Assembly (NCBI GenBank): GCA_029555085.1
Contig: JAKPTO010000026.1
Location: forward strand, 1 to 37,216
Direction of reading: 5' to 3'
Source of the DNA: a bacterium
GTDB lineage: Bacteria; Patescibacteriota; Patescibacteriia; UBA1558; S5-K13
DNA: 37,216 nt
This document shows positions 29,294 through 37,216 of the stretch, in pieces. Both the position numbers and the translations under genes were made by a program. The first letter of the stretch is position 1. Each line of letters opens with the position of its first letter. The notes beneath the pieces were generated by a model that was not told the origin of the DNA, searched no databases, and saw only the letters and a program-made list of their open reading frames with translations.

Positions 29294-29881
29294 ATGACAA
29301 CAGTTTCACAAAAAAACACCATTAAATTCACTGCTCTATTTCTTATCGTAAATATGATGTTTTTGTTTCTTCACACTGATGTTGCTATGGCTTATAGCAA
29401 TATACACCCTGAAAAAATTATAGAACTTGTAAATAAAGAAAGAATAAATAACAACTCCCAATCACTACGTATAAACAAACAATTAATGGAAGCTGCAAAT
29501 AATAAAGCAAAGTATTTAATAGATAATAATATTTTTGAACATAATTCTAATAATAAAAAATTCTCTGATTGGGTAAAAGAAGTTGATTATGATTATTCTT
29601 TTATTGGAGAAAATCTAGCTGAGAATTTTAAAAATAGCGAGACAGCTGTAAATGCCTGGTTAAACTCTCCGTCGCATAAAGAAAATATGCTAAACAATAA
29701 TTTTACTGAAACTGGAGTTGCTGTCATTCAAAAAAATAACAGAATTATTGTGGTACAAATTTTCGGTAGACCTATTTCTAAACAATTACCAATAGAAAAA
29801 ACAATAAAAAATCACATATCTGAAAATATTTTAAAAATAGACGCTAAATACAAAATTCAAATAGTTTCAAATCTTTCCTAG
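29294..29881 (+). CDS. secreted CAP (SCP/PR-1) domain protein
   Basis: A 195-residue exported protein. A signal peptide spans about 1-33 (hydrophobic core 13-29, likely cut after AMA). The CAP domain (about 39-160) carries the family pattern: ELVNKERINNNSQSL, AANNKAKYLIDNNIFEHN with a histidine, IGENLAENF with a glutamate, and WLNSPSHKENMLN, then TETGVAV and IIVVQIFGRP. Bacterial CAP proteins are extracellular with mostly unknown activity. Its 3' end overlaps the convergent uppP gene by 15 bases. The long leader suggests regulation absent from its neighbours. Confidence 0.9.
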   Translation: MTTVSQKNTIKFTALFLIVNMMFLFLHTDVAMAYSNIHPEKIIELVNKERINNNSQSLRINKQLMEAANNKAKYLIDNNIFEHNSNNKKFSDWVKEVDYDYSFIGENLAENFKNSETAVNAWLNSPSHKENMLNNNFTETGVAVIQKNNRIIVVQIFGRPISKQLPIEKTIKNHISENILKIDAKYKIQIVSNLS

Positions 29882-30649
29882 TTTTAAAAGAATAAAAATT
29901 ATAATAGCAAGTAAAATTCTATAATAAGCAAAGATATGTAGTTTAAATCTTTTTAAGAGGTTCATAAAAATATAAATAGATACGAGACTTAAAACAAAAG
30001 AACAAAAAATTCCAAAAACAACTAAATTAATATTTCCAACTGACCCGATGTCAGTTATTTTTTTTATGAAGGCGCCAAATATAAGTGGAATTGCCATGAA
30101 AAAAGAAAATTTTGCAGCATTGGTTCTGTTTAAACCACTTATCATACCAGCTGAAACAGTTACTCCACTTCTTGAAAATCCTGGAATAAGAGATAAGCAT
30201 TGCATAATTCCTATAAATATAGAATTTTTAAAATTTATATTAGTTAAATCTTTTTTGTTCTTCGCAATTTTTTCCGCAAAGATAAACAGTATTGCTCCCA
30301 ATACTAATGTTACTAAAACAATATAAATAGATCTTAGATTTTCTATAAATGAATCTAAAAAGTACCCACAAATCCCCGCTGGTATTATTCCCACAAGCAC
30401 ATATAACAATAAATTATTTTTCCTATCTTTTGAAAAAAAATCTAATATTAATTTTTTTATATCTCGCCAAAAATAAATAATTACAGCAAAAACACTTCCT
30501 AAATGAAGTGAAACATCAAATGAAATATTATTGATAATAGAAGAATCTTTTAATATATTATGTAATAATATTAAGTGTCCGGAACTTGAAACAGGTAAAA
30601 ATTCCGTTAAAGATTGAACTATTGATAAAAGAAATGCTTGTAAATACAT
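29867..30649 (-). CDS. uppP: undecaprenyl-diphosphatase (BacA family)
   Basis: A 260-residue integral membrane enzyme recycling the lipid carrier for peptidoglycan and other glycans. Both catalytic signatures are visible: EFLPVSSSGH (16-25) and GFSRSGVTVSAG (about 157-168), with the expected set of membrane helices. It is divergent from the DUF212 gene, sharing a 45-base promoter region full of TATAAT-like boxes on both strands, and its 3' end overlaps the CAP gene. Its product is needed by every lipid-linked sugar pathway in the window. Confidence 0.96.
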   Translation of the reverse strand: MYLQAFLLSIVQSLTEFLPVSSSGHLILLHNILKDSSIINNISFDVSLHLGSVFAVIIYFWRDIKKLILDFFSKDRKNNLLLYVLVGIIPAGICGYFLDSFIENLRSIYIVLVTLVLGAILFIFAEKIAKNKKDLTNINFKNSIFIGIMQCLSLIPGFSRSGVTVSAGMISGLNRTNAAKFSFFMAIPLIFGAFIKKITDIGSVGNINLVVFGIFCSFVLSLVSIYIFMNLLKRFKLHIFAYYRILLAIIIFILLKLGKI

Positions 30650-30694: not shown

Positions 30695-31123
30695 ATGAAA
30701 TTCGCATTTATAACAATCCCAGCAATTACTGTTATTTTATCTCAGTTTGTATTAAAACCACTTATGTCTACAATAAGAGGCCGTTTTTCTATAAAAAATA
30801 TCTTTGCCTATGGTGGAATGCCATCTTCTCATAGCGCGCTTGTGTCCTCTCTTGCAACAACTGTTGGCATTTTAAAAGGTTTTAATTCTTCGGAATTTGC
30901 AATAAGTTTATTTTTTGCTCTAATAGTGATAAGTGATGCGGTTGGACTTCGTGGATTTATGACAAAACAGGGAATAGCTATAAATAAATTAATAAAAGAC
31001 CTACCAGATGAATTAGAATACAAATATGAAATAATGAACGAGAGTATTGCGCACACAATATCACAGGTAATAATTGGAACATTGATTGGAGTACTAATTC
31101 CTAGTCTAATTCTATTATTATAA
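30695..31123 (+). CDS. divergent PAP2 family membrane protein (DUF212)
   Basis: A 142-residue membrane protein with about four helices. GGMPSSHSALVSSLATTVG (40-58), SDAVGLRGFMTKQGIAIN (79-96) and HTISQVIIGTLIG (about 122-134) are hallmarks of the DUF212 group related to acid phosphatase/vanadium haloperoxidase proteins. The family may dephosphorylate a lipid, and its placement divergent from uppP fits lipid-carrier recycling, but no activity is established for it. Confidence 0.92.
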   Translation: MKFAFITIPAITVILSQFVLKPLMSTIRGRFSIKNIFAYGGMPSSHSALVSSLATTVGILKGFNSSEFAISLFFALIVISDAVGLRGFMTKQGIAINKLIKDLPDELEYKYEIMNESIAHTISQVIIGTLIGVLIPSLILLL

Positions 31124-31145
31124 TTATAAATACACAATATAAATA

Positions 31146-31176
31146 AAAAATGAACACAAAATTTGTTCATTTTTAT
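31146..31176. terminator. bidirectional terminator
   Basis: AAAAATGAACA and TGTTCATTTTT form a perfect 11-pair stem with a 7-nt loop, with A-rich and T-rich flanks. It separates the convergent DUF212 gene and the glycolytic run. Confidence 0.9.
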
Positions 31177-31186
31177 TTTTTAAATT

Positions 31187-31978
31187 TTATATTAAAGAAT
31201 TGCCTCTCATCTCATTTGGTTTTGATATGCCCATAACTTTCAATATTGTTGGAGCCATATCATAAGTATTACCGGCTAATATTTGCTGATTTAATTGTTT
31301 TGAATGATTGTGATTTACAAAACTTTTATCTTTCCAAATTTTCGAAATCATAAAAAGGGGAACAAAATTATTGTCCTTGTTTGTGGAAGTATTTGATGTT
31401 ATAAAAATAGCCCCATTAAAAGTTAAAATCGTATCAACTATAGTCTTAACTTTTGAAGAAAGTATTTGAGACACCCTGTCAATATTATTATTCATAAAAT
31501 TTGGATATGCAATAACGGCAAAGTCATATATTTTTTTCTCTATTTCCTTTAAAAACTTTAAAGTTATATTACTTGCCATCATATCTGTATCGTTTATATA
31601 ATTATCAGATTTTGTTTCACTTATAAGTATTTTATTTACTTTTTGATCGCTTATTTTTTTATTATTGTTAAAAAAATAAGAAATGTTTGGGTATAATTCA
31701 GATTCAGCAACATAAAGCTGTTTTAATCCTGCATCACTTATAACATCCTGCAATGATACGCGCACTAATTCATCTTTTATATAAGAACCAGTCCCGAGTT
31801 CTATATAAGAATTCCACGGATAATCAATATTTGTATCAGTGGATCTTAGCATAAAAAATGGAAAAATATTTGCTAAGGTTTTAAAATATAAAAAATTATT
31901 TGTATCACTTGACAAATAATTTATATCAAAAGAATCTATAATTATAAGACATATTGGTTTTAATCTAGATTTATCCAT
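31187..31978 (-). CDS. shortened, probably inactive paralogue of GpmI (alkaline phosphatase superfamily)
   Basis: A 263-residue protein aligning to the phosphatase half of the neighbouring gpmI: LIIIDSFD (11-18) against ILDGWG, NSYIELGTG (56-64) against NSEAGHMNIGAG, YVAESELYPNISYFFN against YISESEKFSHVTYFFN, and MAPTILKVMGISKPNEMRGN against IAPTILDVMDIKKPSQMTRN. The inserted transferase domain is missing. D15 and S57 are kept, but the DxxxH metal motif is replaced by NFMNNNID, TADHGN by TSNTST, and the later metal-binding histidine is lost. It follows gpmI by 5 bases and ends at a terminator. It probably arose by duplication; a catalytic role as a mutase is unlikely. Confidence 0.85.
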   Translation of the reverse strand: MDKSRLKPICLIIIDSFDINYLSSDTNNFLYFKTLANIFPFFMLRSTDTNIDYPWNSYIELGTGSYIKDELVRVSLQDVISDAGLKQLYVAESELYPNISYFFNNNKKISDQKVNKILISETKSDNYINDTDMMASNITLKFLKEIEKKIYDFAVIAYPNFMNNNIDRVSQILSSKVKTIVDTILTFNGAIFITSNTSTNKDNNFVPLFMISKIWKDKSFVNHNHSKQLNQQILAGNTYDMAPTILKVMGISKPNEMRGNSLI

Positions 31979-31983
31979 AATAA

Positions 31984-33540
31984 CTATTTTATAATTAAAC
32001 TATTTCTCGTCATTTGAGATGGCTTTTTAATATCCATTACATCTAATATTGTTGGCGCTATGTCTCCTAAAATTCCATTTCCTCTTAATTTTTTGTTTTT
32101 ATATTTTTTATTCACCAATATAAAAGGAACCGGATTTGTTGAATGCGATGTGTTTACTTCCCCAGTGTCTAAATCTATCATTTCTTCAATATTCCCATGA
32201 TCAGCTGTTATAAACATTGTGACATCCATTCCCTTAAAAGACTCTTTCATATTGTTTAAACATTTATCCACGGCCTCAACAGCCCTAATTCCTGACTTTA
32301 AAACACCGGTATGCGCAACCATATCAGGATTCGCAAAATTTACTGTAATAAAATCATATTTATCTGCCTTTGTATAATCTATCACCTTTTTTACTAATTG
32401 AAAACAACTCATTTCTGGTTTTTGCGCATAAGAATCAACACTTGGAGATGGAATCATTTCTCTATGCTCGTTAGCTACGGGATCTTTATATCCTCCATTA
32501 AAAAAATAAGTAACATGTGAAAATTTTTCACTTTCAGATATATACAATTGTCGTAAATTAGAAAGTTGCATTGGTAATGTTTGCTTCACATCTCTCGATG
32601 GAAATGCAGTTAATATACTATCTAAATCTGGCCCAAAGTCTGTCATCGAAACAAATTTAATATTTTTCAAGTGCTCGCTTCTTTTAATTGAACATTTATT
32701 TTTTTCACAAACATCGACCTGTACAAATAATTTTGTAAGTTGTCTTGCTCTATCAGATCTAAGATTAAAAAATATTATTGAATCATTGTCTTTTATTTGA
32801 CCAACTGGCTTTCCATTTTTACAAATCACACTTGGCTTGATAAATTCATCTGTCTCTCCTCTATTATATGCCTGACTTATCGCTTCTTCCGCTGAATTAA
32901 CTTTTATACCAACTCCATTTACAATGGCATCATAAGCCATTTCTGTTCTTTGCCATACTTTATTTCTATCCATTGCATAAAACCTACCCACAATTGTTGC
33001 AATAACCTCTCCATTTCTAAAACCAGATCTTAAATCTTTTAAAAATCTAATACTACTATATTGTGAGGAGTCGCGACCATCTGTAAATAAATGTAAAAAA
33101 ACCTTTTTTAGACCTCTTGATTCAACAAGTTTTAAAATTGCTTTTACATGCTCTGGATTAACATGTGGACTCTGATCTCCACTTAAAACACCCATTAAGT
33201 GAACATTAGATTTATTTTGCCTTGCGTGATTTAATGCTTCTAAAAAAGCTGGATTTCTAAAAAATGTCCCATTTTCAATAGCTTTTGTAATGAAAATATC
33301 ATCCTGCAAAACAATTCTTCCCGCGCCAATATTCATATGACCTGCCTCAGAGTTTCCGTCTTGATGCTTCGGCAAACCAACACTAACTCCATGAGCAGAT
33401 AATTGTGTATTTGGATAATTTTTAATAAAAAAATCATATGTAGGGGTTTTAGCAAGCGTCACAGCATTTCCAATTGATGGTTTTGCAATACCCCAACCAT
33501 CTAAAATTATTAAAATATATTTTTCCTTGCGAGTTTTCAT
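31984..33540 (-). CDS. gpmI: 2,3-bisphosphoglycerate-independent phosphoglycerate mutase
   Basis: A 518-residue two-metal enzyme converting 3- to 2-phosphoglycerate. All motifs are canonical: ILDGWG with metal ligand D14, the phosphoserine S64 in GNSEAGHMNIGAG, FTDGRDS, VGRFYAMDR, LRSDRARQLT, DMVAHTG and TADHGN with metal ligands, and SHSTNPVPF. Nothing suggests loss of activity. It sits between the enolase homologue (19-base gap) and its own shortened paralogue (5-base gap) in a pgk-eno-gpmI run. Confidence 0.98.
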   Translation of the reverse strand: MKTRKEKYILIILDGWGIAKPSIGNAVTLAKTPTYDFFIKNYPNTQLSAHGVSVGLPKHQDGNSEAGHMNIGAGRIVLQDDIFITKAIENGTFFRNPAFLEALNHARQNKSNVHLMGVLSGDQSPHVNPEHVKAILKLVESRGLKKVFLHLFTDGRDSSQYSSIRFLKDLRSGFRNGEVIATIVGRFYAMDRNKVWQRTEMAYDAIVNGVGIKVNSAEEAISQAYNRGETDEFIKPSVICKNGKPVGQIKDNDSIIFFNLRSDRARQLTKLFVQVDVCEKNKCSIKRSEHLKNIKFVSMTDFGPDLDSILTAFPSRDVKQTLPMQLSNLRQLYISESEKFSHVTYFFNGGYKDPVANEHREMIPSPSVDSYAQKPEMSCFQLVKKVIDYTKADKYDFITVNFANPDMVAHTGVLKSGIRAVEAVDKCLNNMKESFKGMDVTMFITADHGNIEEMIDLDTGEVNTSHSTNPVPFILVNKKYKNKKLRGNGILGDIAPTILDVMDIKKPSQMTRNSLIIK

Positions 33541-33559: not shown

Positions 33560-34816
33560 CTATATTAGTTCTTCTATTTCAAGTAATCTGTTATATTTAC
33601 AAATTCTCTCACCTCTTGAAATAGCTCCTGCTTTTATATATTCAGCGCCAACTCCAACTGATAAATCAGCTATAAAATCATCACATGTTTCACAACTTCT
33701 ATTTGCTATAATTATTTTATATGAATTTTCTTGAGCCATTTTGATACAATTTATCGTTTCGGAAACACTTCCTATTTGACTTGGTTTGATAGTAATAGAA
33801 TTCGCGCAATCTTTTTCTATTCCAATCTTTAATCTTTTTGTATTTGTGACAAATAAATTATCACCTATTAATTTTGCATCTTTATTTATTTTATTTAAAA
33901 TATTCTTAAATTGGGTCCAGCTTTCTAAATCATCAGAATCAAATGGGTCCTCAAAATAATCAATTTTATATTTATTAATCCAATCAGAATAATAATTTAT
34001 TAATTCAGTTTTAGATAATTCTAATTTATCTAATTTTATAGAATACTTATTTTTATGTTGATTAAAAAAATTTGAAGCATTAGAATCAATACCGAGTTTT
34101 ATCTTATCCTTATATCCAGATCTTTTTATAGCTTCTAATATGAATAACCACACCTCTTCTGTTTTTGAAAAACTTGGAGCATAAGCACCAACGCTACACA
34201 TTTTTGAATCTTTTCCATTTTCAGACAAAACATTTCCGAGTATATGAAATATTTCAGAACCAGCTCTTAATCTATCATTAAAATTATTAAAATCTTCTGG
34301 AATTACCCAAAATTCCTGAAAATCTAAAACAGAATCACAATGTCTTGCTCCGTTTATAACACTAATAATCGGAGTTGGCATACTAACTTTATTTGAAAAA
34401 TTATAATAACTATTTATAAAATTATACAATTGTTTATTTTCCGAAATAGCGCATAATTTATGTAAAGCTGTTGATACTGACAAAATTGTATTTGCTCCCA
34501 AATTTTCCTTATTTTCTGTTCCGTCAAACTCTATCATTTTCTTATCAAGTTCTATTGGATCGTCAATATTAAAATTTCTTAAAAGACTATTTATTTTCGT
34601 GTTGACATTATCAACCGCTTTTAAAACTCCCATTCCCTTGTATCTATTATTGTCTCTATCTCGAAGTTCGTGTGCTTCATTTTTCCCCACTACAACGCCA
34701 AAAGGCACTGAAGCAAAAGCATATTTATCATTATCTAAAAATACAGTAGTGCTAATTGTAGGCACGCCATAACTATCTAAAATTTCCCTAGCAAATATTT
34801 TTTCTATTTTTGGCAT
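33560..34816 (-). CDS. enolase homologue with altered catalytic residues
   Basis: A 418-residue member of the enolase family, full length, in the expected operon slot. Retained (compared with yeast enolase from memory): H159, E168 (DFQEF), metal ligands D244, E289 and D319, lysines K344 and K395, R373 and S374. Changed: the mobile loop PSGASTG is PFGVVVG (38-44); SRGNPT is SYGVPT; GDEGGFAP, carrying the catalytic acid E211, is SVGAYAP (208-214) with valine at that place; SHRSGET, carrying H373, is ANRSCET (371-377). The metal site survives but acid catalysis and substrate closure look impaired. It may have another role, or a very unusual active site. I leave the gene symbol blank for that reason. 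Confidence 0.88.
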   Translation of the reverse strand: MPKIEKIFAREILDSYGVPTISTTVFLDNDKYAFASVPFGVVVGKNEAHELRDRDNNRYKGMGVLKAVDNVNTKINSLLRNFNIDDPIELDKKMIEFDGTENKENLGANTILSVSTALHKLCAISENKQLYNFINSYYNFSNKVSMPTPIISVINGARHCDSVLDFQEFWVIPEDFNNFNDRLRAGSEIFHILGNVLSENGKDSKMCSVGAYAPSFSKTEEVWLFILEAIKRSGYKDKIKLGIDSNASNFFNQHKNKYSIKLDKLELSKTELINYYSDWINKYKIDYFEDPFDSDDLESWTQFKNILNKINKDAKLIGDNLFVTNTKRLKIGIEKDCANSITIKPSQIGSVSETINCIKMAQENSYKIIIANRSCETCDDFIADLSVGVGAEYIKAGAISRGERICKYNRLLEIEELI

Positions 34817-34821
34817 ATTTG

Positions 34822-36003
34822 TTATTTTAATTTATTTTTTTCTAAATATGTAATTGCTGGCAATTTTTTACCTGATAAAAACTCTAGCATTGCTCCTCCA
34901 CCTGTAGATATAAAATCAAATGTATTTTTCATTTTTAACTCATTTAAAAGTCCAACTGTTTCTCCCCCACCTGAATATCTCAATGATTTAGATTTTTTAA
35001 TTTCCTTTATCATTGTTTCTGTAGCATGTCTATATTTTTTAATTTCAAAATATCCCATTGGTCCGTTCCATAAAATAAACTTAGCTCTCTTAATATAATC
35101 TGAATAAATTTTCATTGTTTTTGGACCTATATCTAAAATTATATCATCGTTCTGTAATTTTTGCATATCTTTAATTTCTGATCTCGATTTTTCATTAATA
35201 TTTTTTGAAACAACAACATCAATGGGAGCAATAATTTTTTTTGAGTCCATTTTTCTTGTCGCATCTATCAATTTCACTTCAAATATAGATTTTCCTATAT
35301 TTACACCCCTTGAATATAAAAAATTATTAGCGATTACTCCACCCAGCAAAACTCTATCAAATTTATTAATCAGTTTAGAAATAACTGGGAGTTTTGTATC
35401 TGCTTTTGCTCCCCCCATTATGAGTATAGCATTTTTAAATTTACTATTTAAAACTTTATTTAATTCTTTTATTTCATAGTCAAACCTAAATCCCATATAA
35501 CTTGGTAAATATTTTGTTATTGCGCACGCTGACATGTGTTCTCTATGCGCATTTGAAAAAGCATCATTTACATACAAATCAAATAACTTTGCTAAATCGC
35601 TCGCCATTTTATTATCATTTGTCATTTCTTCCTTATAAAATCTTATATTTTCCAATAGAATAACCTCTCCTTCTTTCATTTTTTCTATATCTTTTGAAAT
35701 ATCCTTTGGCATAGCACTGTCTAATTTTTTTACTTTTTTATTTAAATATTTTGACAAAACATTTGCCACTTTATCCATTTTGTATTTAGCATCATATTTT
35801 CCATCGGGTCGTCCTATATAGGAAATTATTACGGTTTTAGATTTTTTAGAAATTAAATATTTTATTGTTTTCAACGATGATTCTATTCTAAATGTATTTT
35901 CAGGATCAACTTGACCATTTTTTAAAAACGATAAATTTAAATCAAGCTTTAAAAGAACTTTTTTTGATTTTAAATTCACGATACTTTCTAATTTTTTATA
36001 CAT
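34822..36003 (-). CDS. pgk: phosphoglycerate kinase
   Basis: A 393-residue glycolytic kinase making ATP from 1,3-bisphosphoglycerate. Conserved segments: LKLDLNL (18-24), SYIGRPDG (60-67; the usual His is Tyr), LLENIRFYKEE (116-126), VNDAFSNAHREHMSA (about 140-154), GGAKADTKLPVI (about 197-208), LWNGPMGYFE, SGGGETVG (usually GGGDT/S) and STGGGAMLEFLSGKKLP. Substrate and nucleotide sites are essentially complete, so it is probably active. It overlaps the preceding small membrane protein gene by 8 bases, and the enolase homologue follows after 5 bases. Confidence 0.96.
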   Translation of the reverse strand: MYKKLESIVNLKSKKVLLKLDLNLSFLKNGQVDPENTFRIESSLKTIKYLISKKSKTVIISYIGRPDGKYDAKYKMDKVANVLSKYLNKKVKKLDSAMPKDISKDIEKMKEGEVILLENIRFYKEEMTNDNKMASDLAKLFDLYVNDAFSNAHREHMSACAITKYLPSYMGFRFDYEIKELNKVLNSKFKNAILIMGGAKADTKLPVISKLINKFDRVLLGGVIANNFLYSRGVNIGKSIFEVKLIDATRKMDSKKIIAPIDVVVSKNINEKSRSEIKDMQKLQNDDIILDIGPKTMKIYSDYIKRAKFILWNGPMGYFEIKKYRHATETMIKEIKKSKSLRYSGGGETVGLLNELKMKNTFDFISTGGGAMLEFLSGKKLPAITYLEKNKLK

Positions 36004-36430
36004 ACTTTTCTTTTTTAATTATATTTAAAATATTTTCTGCTTCATCAGAGCTAACGAAAAAAGTAACACCATCTTTTAATTTAATTGAAAGACCGTCCCC
36101 TCTCTTCGCAATAAAAGCAAATTTTTTAACTCTTGAAATAATTCCTAATCCAAAAAAATTCCCCACTGAATTATCTATATAAACCGAATCAATATATTCT
36201 TTTTTTATAAGCCTTTTAAAAATACCAAAACCAAACTCCAGTCCCACGCTAGTAACTTTAAAAGTTAAATAAAAAAAATTAATTACAACAAAAATATCTA
36301 AAACCAATATAGCGAGCCACAAATAATTAAAATTGTTTTTTAAAAAAAACAAAGACACAATAAATACTAAAAAATATATAGATAAAAAAGCAATACTCAT
36401 TCTTTGTTTACTTTTATAAATTATATACAT
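35996..36430 (-). CDS. small membrane protein with PH-like domain
   Basis: A 144-residue protein with two membrane helices (about 11-30 and 36-58) followed by a beta-rich domain (65-140). The pattern VTSVGLEFGFGIFKRLIKKEYIDSVYI and a closing amphipathic helix (SSDEAENILNIIKKE) resemble bacterial PH-like membrane proteins. No function can be given. It begins one base after the histidine kinase stop and its end overlaps pgk by 8 bases, so kinase, this protein and glycolytic genes are probably one transcript. Confidence 0.7.
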   Translation of the reverse strand: MYIIYKSKQRMSIAFLSIYFLVFIVSLFFLKNNFNYLWLAILVLDIFVVINFFYLTFKVTSVGLEFGFGIFKRLIKKEYIDSVYIDNSVGNFFGLGIISRVKKFAFIAKRGDGLSIKLKDGVTFFVSSDEAENILNIIKKEKYV

Positions 36431-36431
36431 A

Positions 36432-37216
36432 TTATTTTAAATTGTTTGGAATTGTAAATTGGAAAACTGAACCCTTCCCAAGACCCTCACTTTCAACCCA
36501 AATTTTACCTCCATGAATTTCTACCATTTTTCTAGCTATATAAAGACCGAGTCCAGAGCCATCAGTATTAATCTTTGCGCTGTCATTTCCTCTGGAAAAT
36601 TTAGAAAACAATCTATCTATTTCTTCTTCGCTAAGACCTACTCCGGTATCTTTAATTTTCACAATTATATTTTTATCATCACAATTTAATTCAATATTCA
36701 CAGCACCTTTTGGAGTGTATTTAATAGAATTATCTATTAAATTTAAAAATACGTCTTTTATTTTATCTACATCTAATTTAATTTTTGTTTGATCTTGTTT
36801 CTTCCTTAAATCTTTAAATAACAATGTAATACCTTTTGATTCTGCATTTGGTTTCAAATTTTCAACAGATTCTTTTATAATTTCGGAAATTTCTACTTCT
36901 TGTAAGTCTAATTTCAATCTCCCGGATTCAATTCTTGAAACATTTAAAAACACATTAACAAGTTTTGACATTCTATCGCTCGCAAGAAATATATCTTTTA
37001 AAACTGAATTTTGCTTTGAAGAGAATTTTCCAAAGTCCCCCTCTAACATCATTGACAAATAACCTTTTATTCCAGTAAGCGGTGTTCTAAGTTGGTGAGA
37101 CGCAATTGACAAAAATTCTGATTTTGCTCGATCCAGTTGTTTTAAGTGTTCATTTGCGTCTTCAAGTTCTTCATTTTTTCCCCTTAATTCTTTATATAAA
37201 TTAATATTTTTTATAA
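36432..37216 (-). CDS. sensor histidine kinase, 5' end outside window
   Basis: The frame is open to the window edge on the minus strand; 260 residues are visible. The first 34 are a charged coiled coil (signalling helix), then the HisKA phosphorylation site in SIASHQLRTPL and the HATPase domain with N box NLIDNSIKYTP, G1 DTGVGL and G2 GSGLGLYIARKM. A start at 37112 would use a TTG inside the conserved SEFLSIASHQL segment, so I reject it; the sensor region and true start lie beyond 37216. No response regulator gene is visible here. It runs into the small membrane protein and pgk genes. Confidence 0.93.
   Translation of the reverse strand, partial: IKNINLYKELRGKNEELEDANEHLKQLDRAKSEFLSIASHQLRTPLTGIKGYLSMMLEGDFGKFSSKQNSVLKDIFLASDRMSKLVNVFLNVSRIESGRLKLDLQEVEISEIIKESVENLKPNAESKGITLLFKDLRKKQDQTKIKLDVDKIKDVFLNLIDNSIKYTPKGAVNIELNCDDKNIIVKIKDTGVGLSEEEIDRLFSKFSRGNDSAKINTDGSGLGLYIARKMVEIHGGKIWVESEGLGKGSVFQFTIPNNLK

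Follow-up and report, generated by a model that had tools for sequence, protein, structure and literature searches.

What is a 263-residue relative of phosphoglycerate mutase doing at the end of a lower-glycolysis operon, directly behind a full-length GpmI, in a bacterium with a genome of only 1.02 Mb? The window analysed here comprises the initial 37,216 nucleotides of contig C5, one of the 53 contigs of this genome. The reading frame in question, designated gpmIΔ, lies at 31187..31978 on the minus strand. The original prediction described it as an intact, selectively retained and non-catalytic duplicate of the adjoining gpmI. The results indicate that gpmIΔ is a real, conserved, domain-deleted pseudoenzyme derived from GpmI, and that the stepwise series seen in its relatives is the most useful part of the case.

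The operon and the residues lost from its last gene

From 37.1 to 31.2 kb, the minus strand encodes a histidine kinase, a 144-aa protein, pgk, an enolase, GpmI and gpmIΔ, in that order. The conserved block begins with the C-terminal part of the histidine kinase (36432..37112), which runs beyond the window and has 922 aa in the contig. The 144-aa protein (35996..36430) has no Pfam match and overlaps pgk; its orthologues hold the equal position before pgk in the other three genomes of the family (G001, G002 and G003). The sole phosphoglycerate kinase found in the genome is encoded by pgk (34822..36003), followed by the genome's second enolase (eno', 33560..34816), probably inactive as an enolase, and by the full-length GpmI of 518 aa (gpmI_A, 31984..33540), which has kept every metal and catalytic position read. 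After a gap of 5 nt comes gpmIΔ, the last gene of the operon, with an ATG start codon and an intact frame of 263 codons. Just past its stop codon, an A/T-rich hairpin followed by a U run (31135..31180, minus strand; dG -9.6 kcal/mol, z -3.06) has the form of an intrinsic terminator and likely marks the end of the operon. A search of the operon for Rfam elements gave none. Beyond the hairpin lie a convergent PAP2-like (DUF212) gene on the plus strand (30695..31123) and, on the minus strand, uppP (BacA, 29867..30649), a conserved synteny marker.

The similarity of gpmIΔ to GpmI is far beyond chance, as the original prediction had proposed. BLASTP aligned it with the C-terminal part of the adjoining GpmI (E=4e-18, 29% identity), the iPGM profile TIGR01307 matched it over profile positions 306-504 (E=9e-21), and the iPGM structure 1ejj in the PDB matched it at E=9.4e-14. 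The Pfam Metalloenzyme domain PF01676 of the alkaline phosphatase superfamily scored 31.3 bits against a cut-off of 24.3, and 27.8 and 59.3 bits in the two orthologues. An AlphaFold2 model based on 30 aligned sequences reached a pLDDT of 87.3 and a pTM of 0.90, and in Foldseek the 22 best PDB matches of this model were iPGMs without exception (E 5e-15 to 1e-10); sulfatases and other superfamily members came next. The model of the more distant G002 orthologue also folds (pLDDT 79.9), with the region of the former Ser loop poorly modelled. Both models rest on alignments rich in GpmI_B, the second GpmI of related operons; that of the window protein predicts with confidence a GpmI phosphatase fold for gpmIΔ. 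An origin in a different alkaline-phosphatase family whose metal site is complete was rejected, as no such match was obtained and no other family outscored GpmI in Pfam, TIGR01307 or Foldseek.

Cofactor-independent mutases consist of a phosphatase and a transferase domain connected through two hinges; seven metal ligands have been listed for them (PMC5382265). Compared with the enzyme of G. stearothermophilus (1EJJ/1O98), gpmIΔ shares the phosphatase-domain fold, the N-terminal strand, the Asn-Ser motif and the C-terminal tail 'APTIL.VMG...M.G.SLI', but is without the transferase domain, the metal ligands and Lys336, and its TIGR01307 score of 73.9 bits lies far below the curated cut-off of 330.65, outside the family. 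The inserted transferase domain that belongs to this family is missing, as originally proposed: the alignment leaps from the region of iPGM residue ~72 (~77) to ~310-316, and a Pfam search found no PF06415 in gpmIΔ, a domain that is present in the adjoining GpmI_A. The cut falls at about the two iPGM hinges.

The loss of DxxxH, DHG and a further, last His ligand, also claimed at the outset, was borne out by the alignments, and the equivalent of Lys336 is absent as well, replaced by Leu, Met and Asp in the three orthologues. Fifteen metal, nucleophile and substrate positions, numbered by 1EJJ, were read. The other complete GpmI_B proteins retain D12, S62, H123, R153, D154, R185, R191, R261, R264, K336, D403, H407, D444, H445 and H462, and almost all of these are gone from gpmIΔ. 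Within the two-metal site (D12/S62/D403/H407/D444/H445/H462), the Ser alone is found in all three orthologues, the Asp12 equivalent in two of them, and five of the seven ligands are gone from all three. The claim that D15 and S57 survive holds for the window protein; D15 is also kept in the G003 orthologue and is Ser in that of G002, and the Asn-Ser pair containing S57 aligns with the GpmI nucleophile motif in 24 of 24 sequences, with a second alignment placing S57 in a gap. As both the glycerate-binding transferase half and the serine-activating metals are missing, no mutase activity is expected, and gpmIΔ is most probably not a mutase. The residue losses favour the earlier view of a non-catalytic protein and make gpmIΔ an enzyme homologue that has shed its catalytic residues, one mark of a pseudoenzyme.

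Origin in the second gpmI of the order

Across the order, the locus reads pgk-eno-gpmI_A-gpmI_B-PAP2-uppP and encodes two full-length GpmIs with their catalytic residues kept; in the other families the operon mostly ends in these two genes. In six genomes of three families that were read gene by gene (G017, G020, G023, G026, G031 and G034), a PAP2-like gene and uppP come closely after gpmI_A and gpmI_B, and in most cases manC and mltG lie beyond them. All complete GpmI_A and GpmI_B proteins outside gpmIΔ are intact at the 15 positions. In G027, G028 and G032 gpmI_B looks split; this was taken as assembly damage, since two of the genes contain N runs and the other has a stretch missing. Because the PAP2-like gene comes after gpmI_B in relatives, it marks the gpmI_B slot, and gpmIΔ occupies precisely this slot, between gpmI_A and PAP2/uppP.

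Sequence comparison points the same way. gpmIΔ scored 83-100 bits against 19 GpmI_B proteins and 25-48 bits against the 19 GpmI_A proteins of the same genomes. In a tree of the phosphatase domain, it falls inside the GpmI_B clade (28 rows, support 99/99) on a long branch of 1.29 changes per column, and a tree uniting it with the GpmI_A of its own family (f1) was rejected (AU p=0.009). On the strength of the slot, the GpmI_B clade and the AU rejection, gpmIΔ is very probably a gpmI_B reduced in situ, and by tree and gene position it is the direct orthologue of the GpmI_B proteins of the order. Those of them that were examined whole differ from it in having the full length and every catalytic residue. 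This contradicts the original prediction of a tandem duplicate of the adjoining gpmI: an independent local copy of gpmI_A would account for the adjacency and the 29% identity, but the far better match to GpmI_B, the AU test and the conserved slot leave it almost no probability.

A solo GpmI encoded on contig C45 of the same genome could be joined with gpmIΔ without rejection (AU p=0.164) and may be a moved copy of gpmI_B. The gpmI duplication is old, since further orders of the class also have GpmI genes in tandem. Full-length pairs of one canonical and one divergent GpmI were seen in these orders at L101:6642-9825, L102:5293-8646, L104:5124-8284, L105:6730-9894 and L106:7169-10411. A search of 238 genomes of the class for other short gpmIΔ forms gave none beyond the family among the matches listed, and the domain loss is confined, as far as seen, to this Patescibacteria family. 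The order's GpmI_A carries a rearranged loop around His123 (SPH/SAH for GGVH) and NLRSDRA for NFRxDRA, with the residues kept; its substrate or partner specificity may differ. The full tandem pair is standard in the order, and why both copies have been kept is a question in itself.

Constraint and possible functions

Carriers of gpmIΔ so far number only three genomes, out of four of one Patescibacteria family: G000, the genome of the window; G003 (71% identity; JAQVMR010000050.1, Patescibacteria STF1_138, the single record in a scan of named genomes); and G002 (44%). The gene is intact and stop-free each time and directly behind gpmI: the two genes are 5 nt apart in one genome and 2 nt in another, and overlap by 8 nt in the remaining one. 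In G001 the contig stops inside the operon eno gene, and the missing enolase and gpmIΔ are attributed to this assembly break and were not counted as a loss. Between G000 and G003, NG86 estimates gave a dN of 0.178, a dS of 1.08 and a ratio of 0.165, with zero indels in 263 codons; with dS near saturation the ratio is approximate and its direction firm. For G000-G002 dS was saturated; only NG86 was used for dN/dS, and ML dS values were unstable. The neighbours gave similar values in the same pair of genomes (pgk 0.145, PAP2 0.129, gpmI_A 0.124, eno' 0.203), so that gpmIΔ is under purifying constraint like these neighbours. When neutral drift was simulated, 0.1 substitutions per site left 1% of runs with an intact frame, and 0.25 left none of the 5000. 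The constraint, the intact orthologues and the simulations sustain the earlier claim of retention by selection and exclude a pseudogene. gpmIΔ thus carries also a second mark of a pseudoenzyme, maintenance by selection, and it can be said with high confidence that it is under selection and therefore does something. Constraint on the fold does not name the function.

The best explanation, held at about even chances, is that gpmIΔ is a non-catalytic pseudoenzyme and probable partner of the co-translated GpmI_A. On the evidence of sequence, tree and synteny, the ancestral operon pgk-eno-gpmI_A-gpmI_B encoded two full GpmIs, of which gpmI_B was stripped of the transferase domain and almost all metal ligands, without leaving its site, in the ancestor of the three genomes. 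The remnant was kept as a 263-aa protein with the predicted alkaline-phosphatase fold. Translated a few bases after gpmI_A, it would bind the residue-complete GpmI_A or another enzyme of the operon, a pairing for which the balance is again about equal, and would tune the stability, assembly or activity of its partner. The loss of gpmI_B catalysis would have been affordable with two other intact GpmIs elsewhere in the genome. The operon enolase followed later, in one genus only. Against a complex of two GpmIs stands the description of iPGMs as monomers (PMC5382265), which leaves such a pairing without precedent.

Comparable cases come from other families. The periplasmic domain of PbgA/YejM has an alkaline-phosphatase-superfamily fold; it has been reported that the catalytic residues typical of the superfamily are absent from it and that its role is non-canonical (PMC7018646). 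Others have called YejM a metalloenzyme (PMC7576196). PbgA/YejM was among the fold matches of gpmIΔ and shares with it the superfamily fold and the reported loss of catalytic residues, but is membrane-anchored and not derived from GpmI. Inactive PRPS paralogues have evolved repeatedly in eukaryotes and have been proposed to regulate the enzyme (PMC13252144). These too are catalytically dead paralogues of a metabolic enzyme, but they belong to another enzyme family, are described from eukaryotes and have a known partner, whereas a partner of gpmIΔ is only presumed. A full-text literature search combining cofactor-independent phosphoglycerate mutase with 'pseudoenzyme' found no paper in the collection covered, and glycolytic pseudoenzymes in streamlined bacteria have been little described.

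The Asn-Ser motif kept in all three orthologues may reflect residual or new chemistry. gpmIΔ could accordingly be read as a new enzyme, a re-invented hydrolase or transferase, metal-poor or metal-free, that uses the nucleophile Ser (with Asp15 in genus g1, comprising G000 and G003) on another substrate. The invariance of the Asn-Ser pair in all 24 aligned sequences, the constraint, and the residues newly fixed in the three orthologues (e.g., D444 to Asn and H66 to Tyr) are consistent with such a role. With five of seven metal ligands gone throughout, Asp15 replaced by Ser in G002, Lys336 replaced by three different residues and no other superfamily family scoring above GpmI, a new enzyme is nevertheless unlikely.

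The altered enolase and the spare enzymes

In genus g1, the operon enolase has changed the Glu of GDEGG to Val and the His of SHRSGE to Asn, and its SGAST loop is lost or altered; that of G003 is additionally without the Glu of QEF. The protein still scores 437.1 bits against TIGR01060 (cut-off 300) and is without the catalytic acid/base and S-loop residues of that family. In G002 the operon enolase keeps all catalytic residues read, and it is complete across the order at large.

The original prediction held that two altered glycolytic homologues in one operon were unlikely to be a coincidence. One could suppose that gpmIΔ serves the altered enolase as a structural or regulatory partner, both forming one repurposed complex, as both are altered in the same operon in genus g1 and eno' is still constrained (NG86 dN/dS 0.203). 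The family tree branches into G001, then G002, then G000 plus G003, and G002 combines an already degenerate gpmIΔ with an intact operon enolase. The losses were therefore sequential and lie on different branches: by the residues read, gpmI_B was reduced first, and the catalytic residues of the enolase were lost later, only in genus g1. The argument from coincidence needs correction on this account, and a shared complex with the altered enolase is improbable.

Canonical copies of both enzymes exist outside the operon. All three genomes with gpmIΔ contain a spare canonical eno-gpmI set plus a third, solo GpmI, and all encode a single PGK, in the operon. In the genome of the window, the spare GpmIs are on C45 and C50 and the eno on C50; in G003, eno and gpmI of the spare set are on contigs C61 and C14. 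Given the spare pair, the co-occurrence of gpmIΔ and eno' can be explained by shared relaxation. Such redundancy most simply accounts for the loss of catalysis in two operon enzymes; a common complex may exist but is not required. It is doubtful that the operon is turning into a non-catalytic assembly in which gpmIΔ, and after it the enolase, became constrained pseudoenzymes that hold the sole PGK together with GpmI_A or regulate them, catalysis of these steps having moved to the second eno-gpmI pair.

The same spare enzymes would allow gpmIΔ to be a slowly decaying relic, made dispensable once a second eno-gpmI pair was acquired and lasting by chance. The long branch (1.29 changes per column) and the degeneration of the enolase of the same operon in genus g1 also fit this reading. 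It is opposed by the frame that three genomes keep intact (identities of 71% and 44%), dN/dS of ~0.17 without indels between G000 and G003, the rapid loss of the frame in neutral simulations and the folding of both models. Slow decay is largely refuted for the G000-G003 split and is, overall, even less probable than a new enzyme or a complex with the enolase.

A constrained pseudoenzyme acting as a partner within the operon is thus the preferred reading. The relatives, which pass from two intact genes through a reduced gpmI_B to an enolase that is dead too, offer a natural experiment on the conversion of enzymes to non-catalytic proteins in a metabolic operon under genome reduction.

Other observations concern the glycolytic complement of the family. 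GAPDH (PF02800) was found in three of the four family genomes and not in G002, which is listed as 99% complete; all four encode pyruvate kinase. The 1.02 Mb genome of the window encodes three full-length, residue-complete GpmIs (L014:8437-10017 and L015:8671-10179), two enolases and one PGK.
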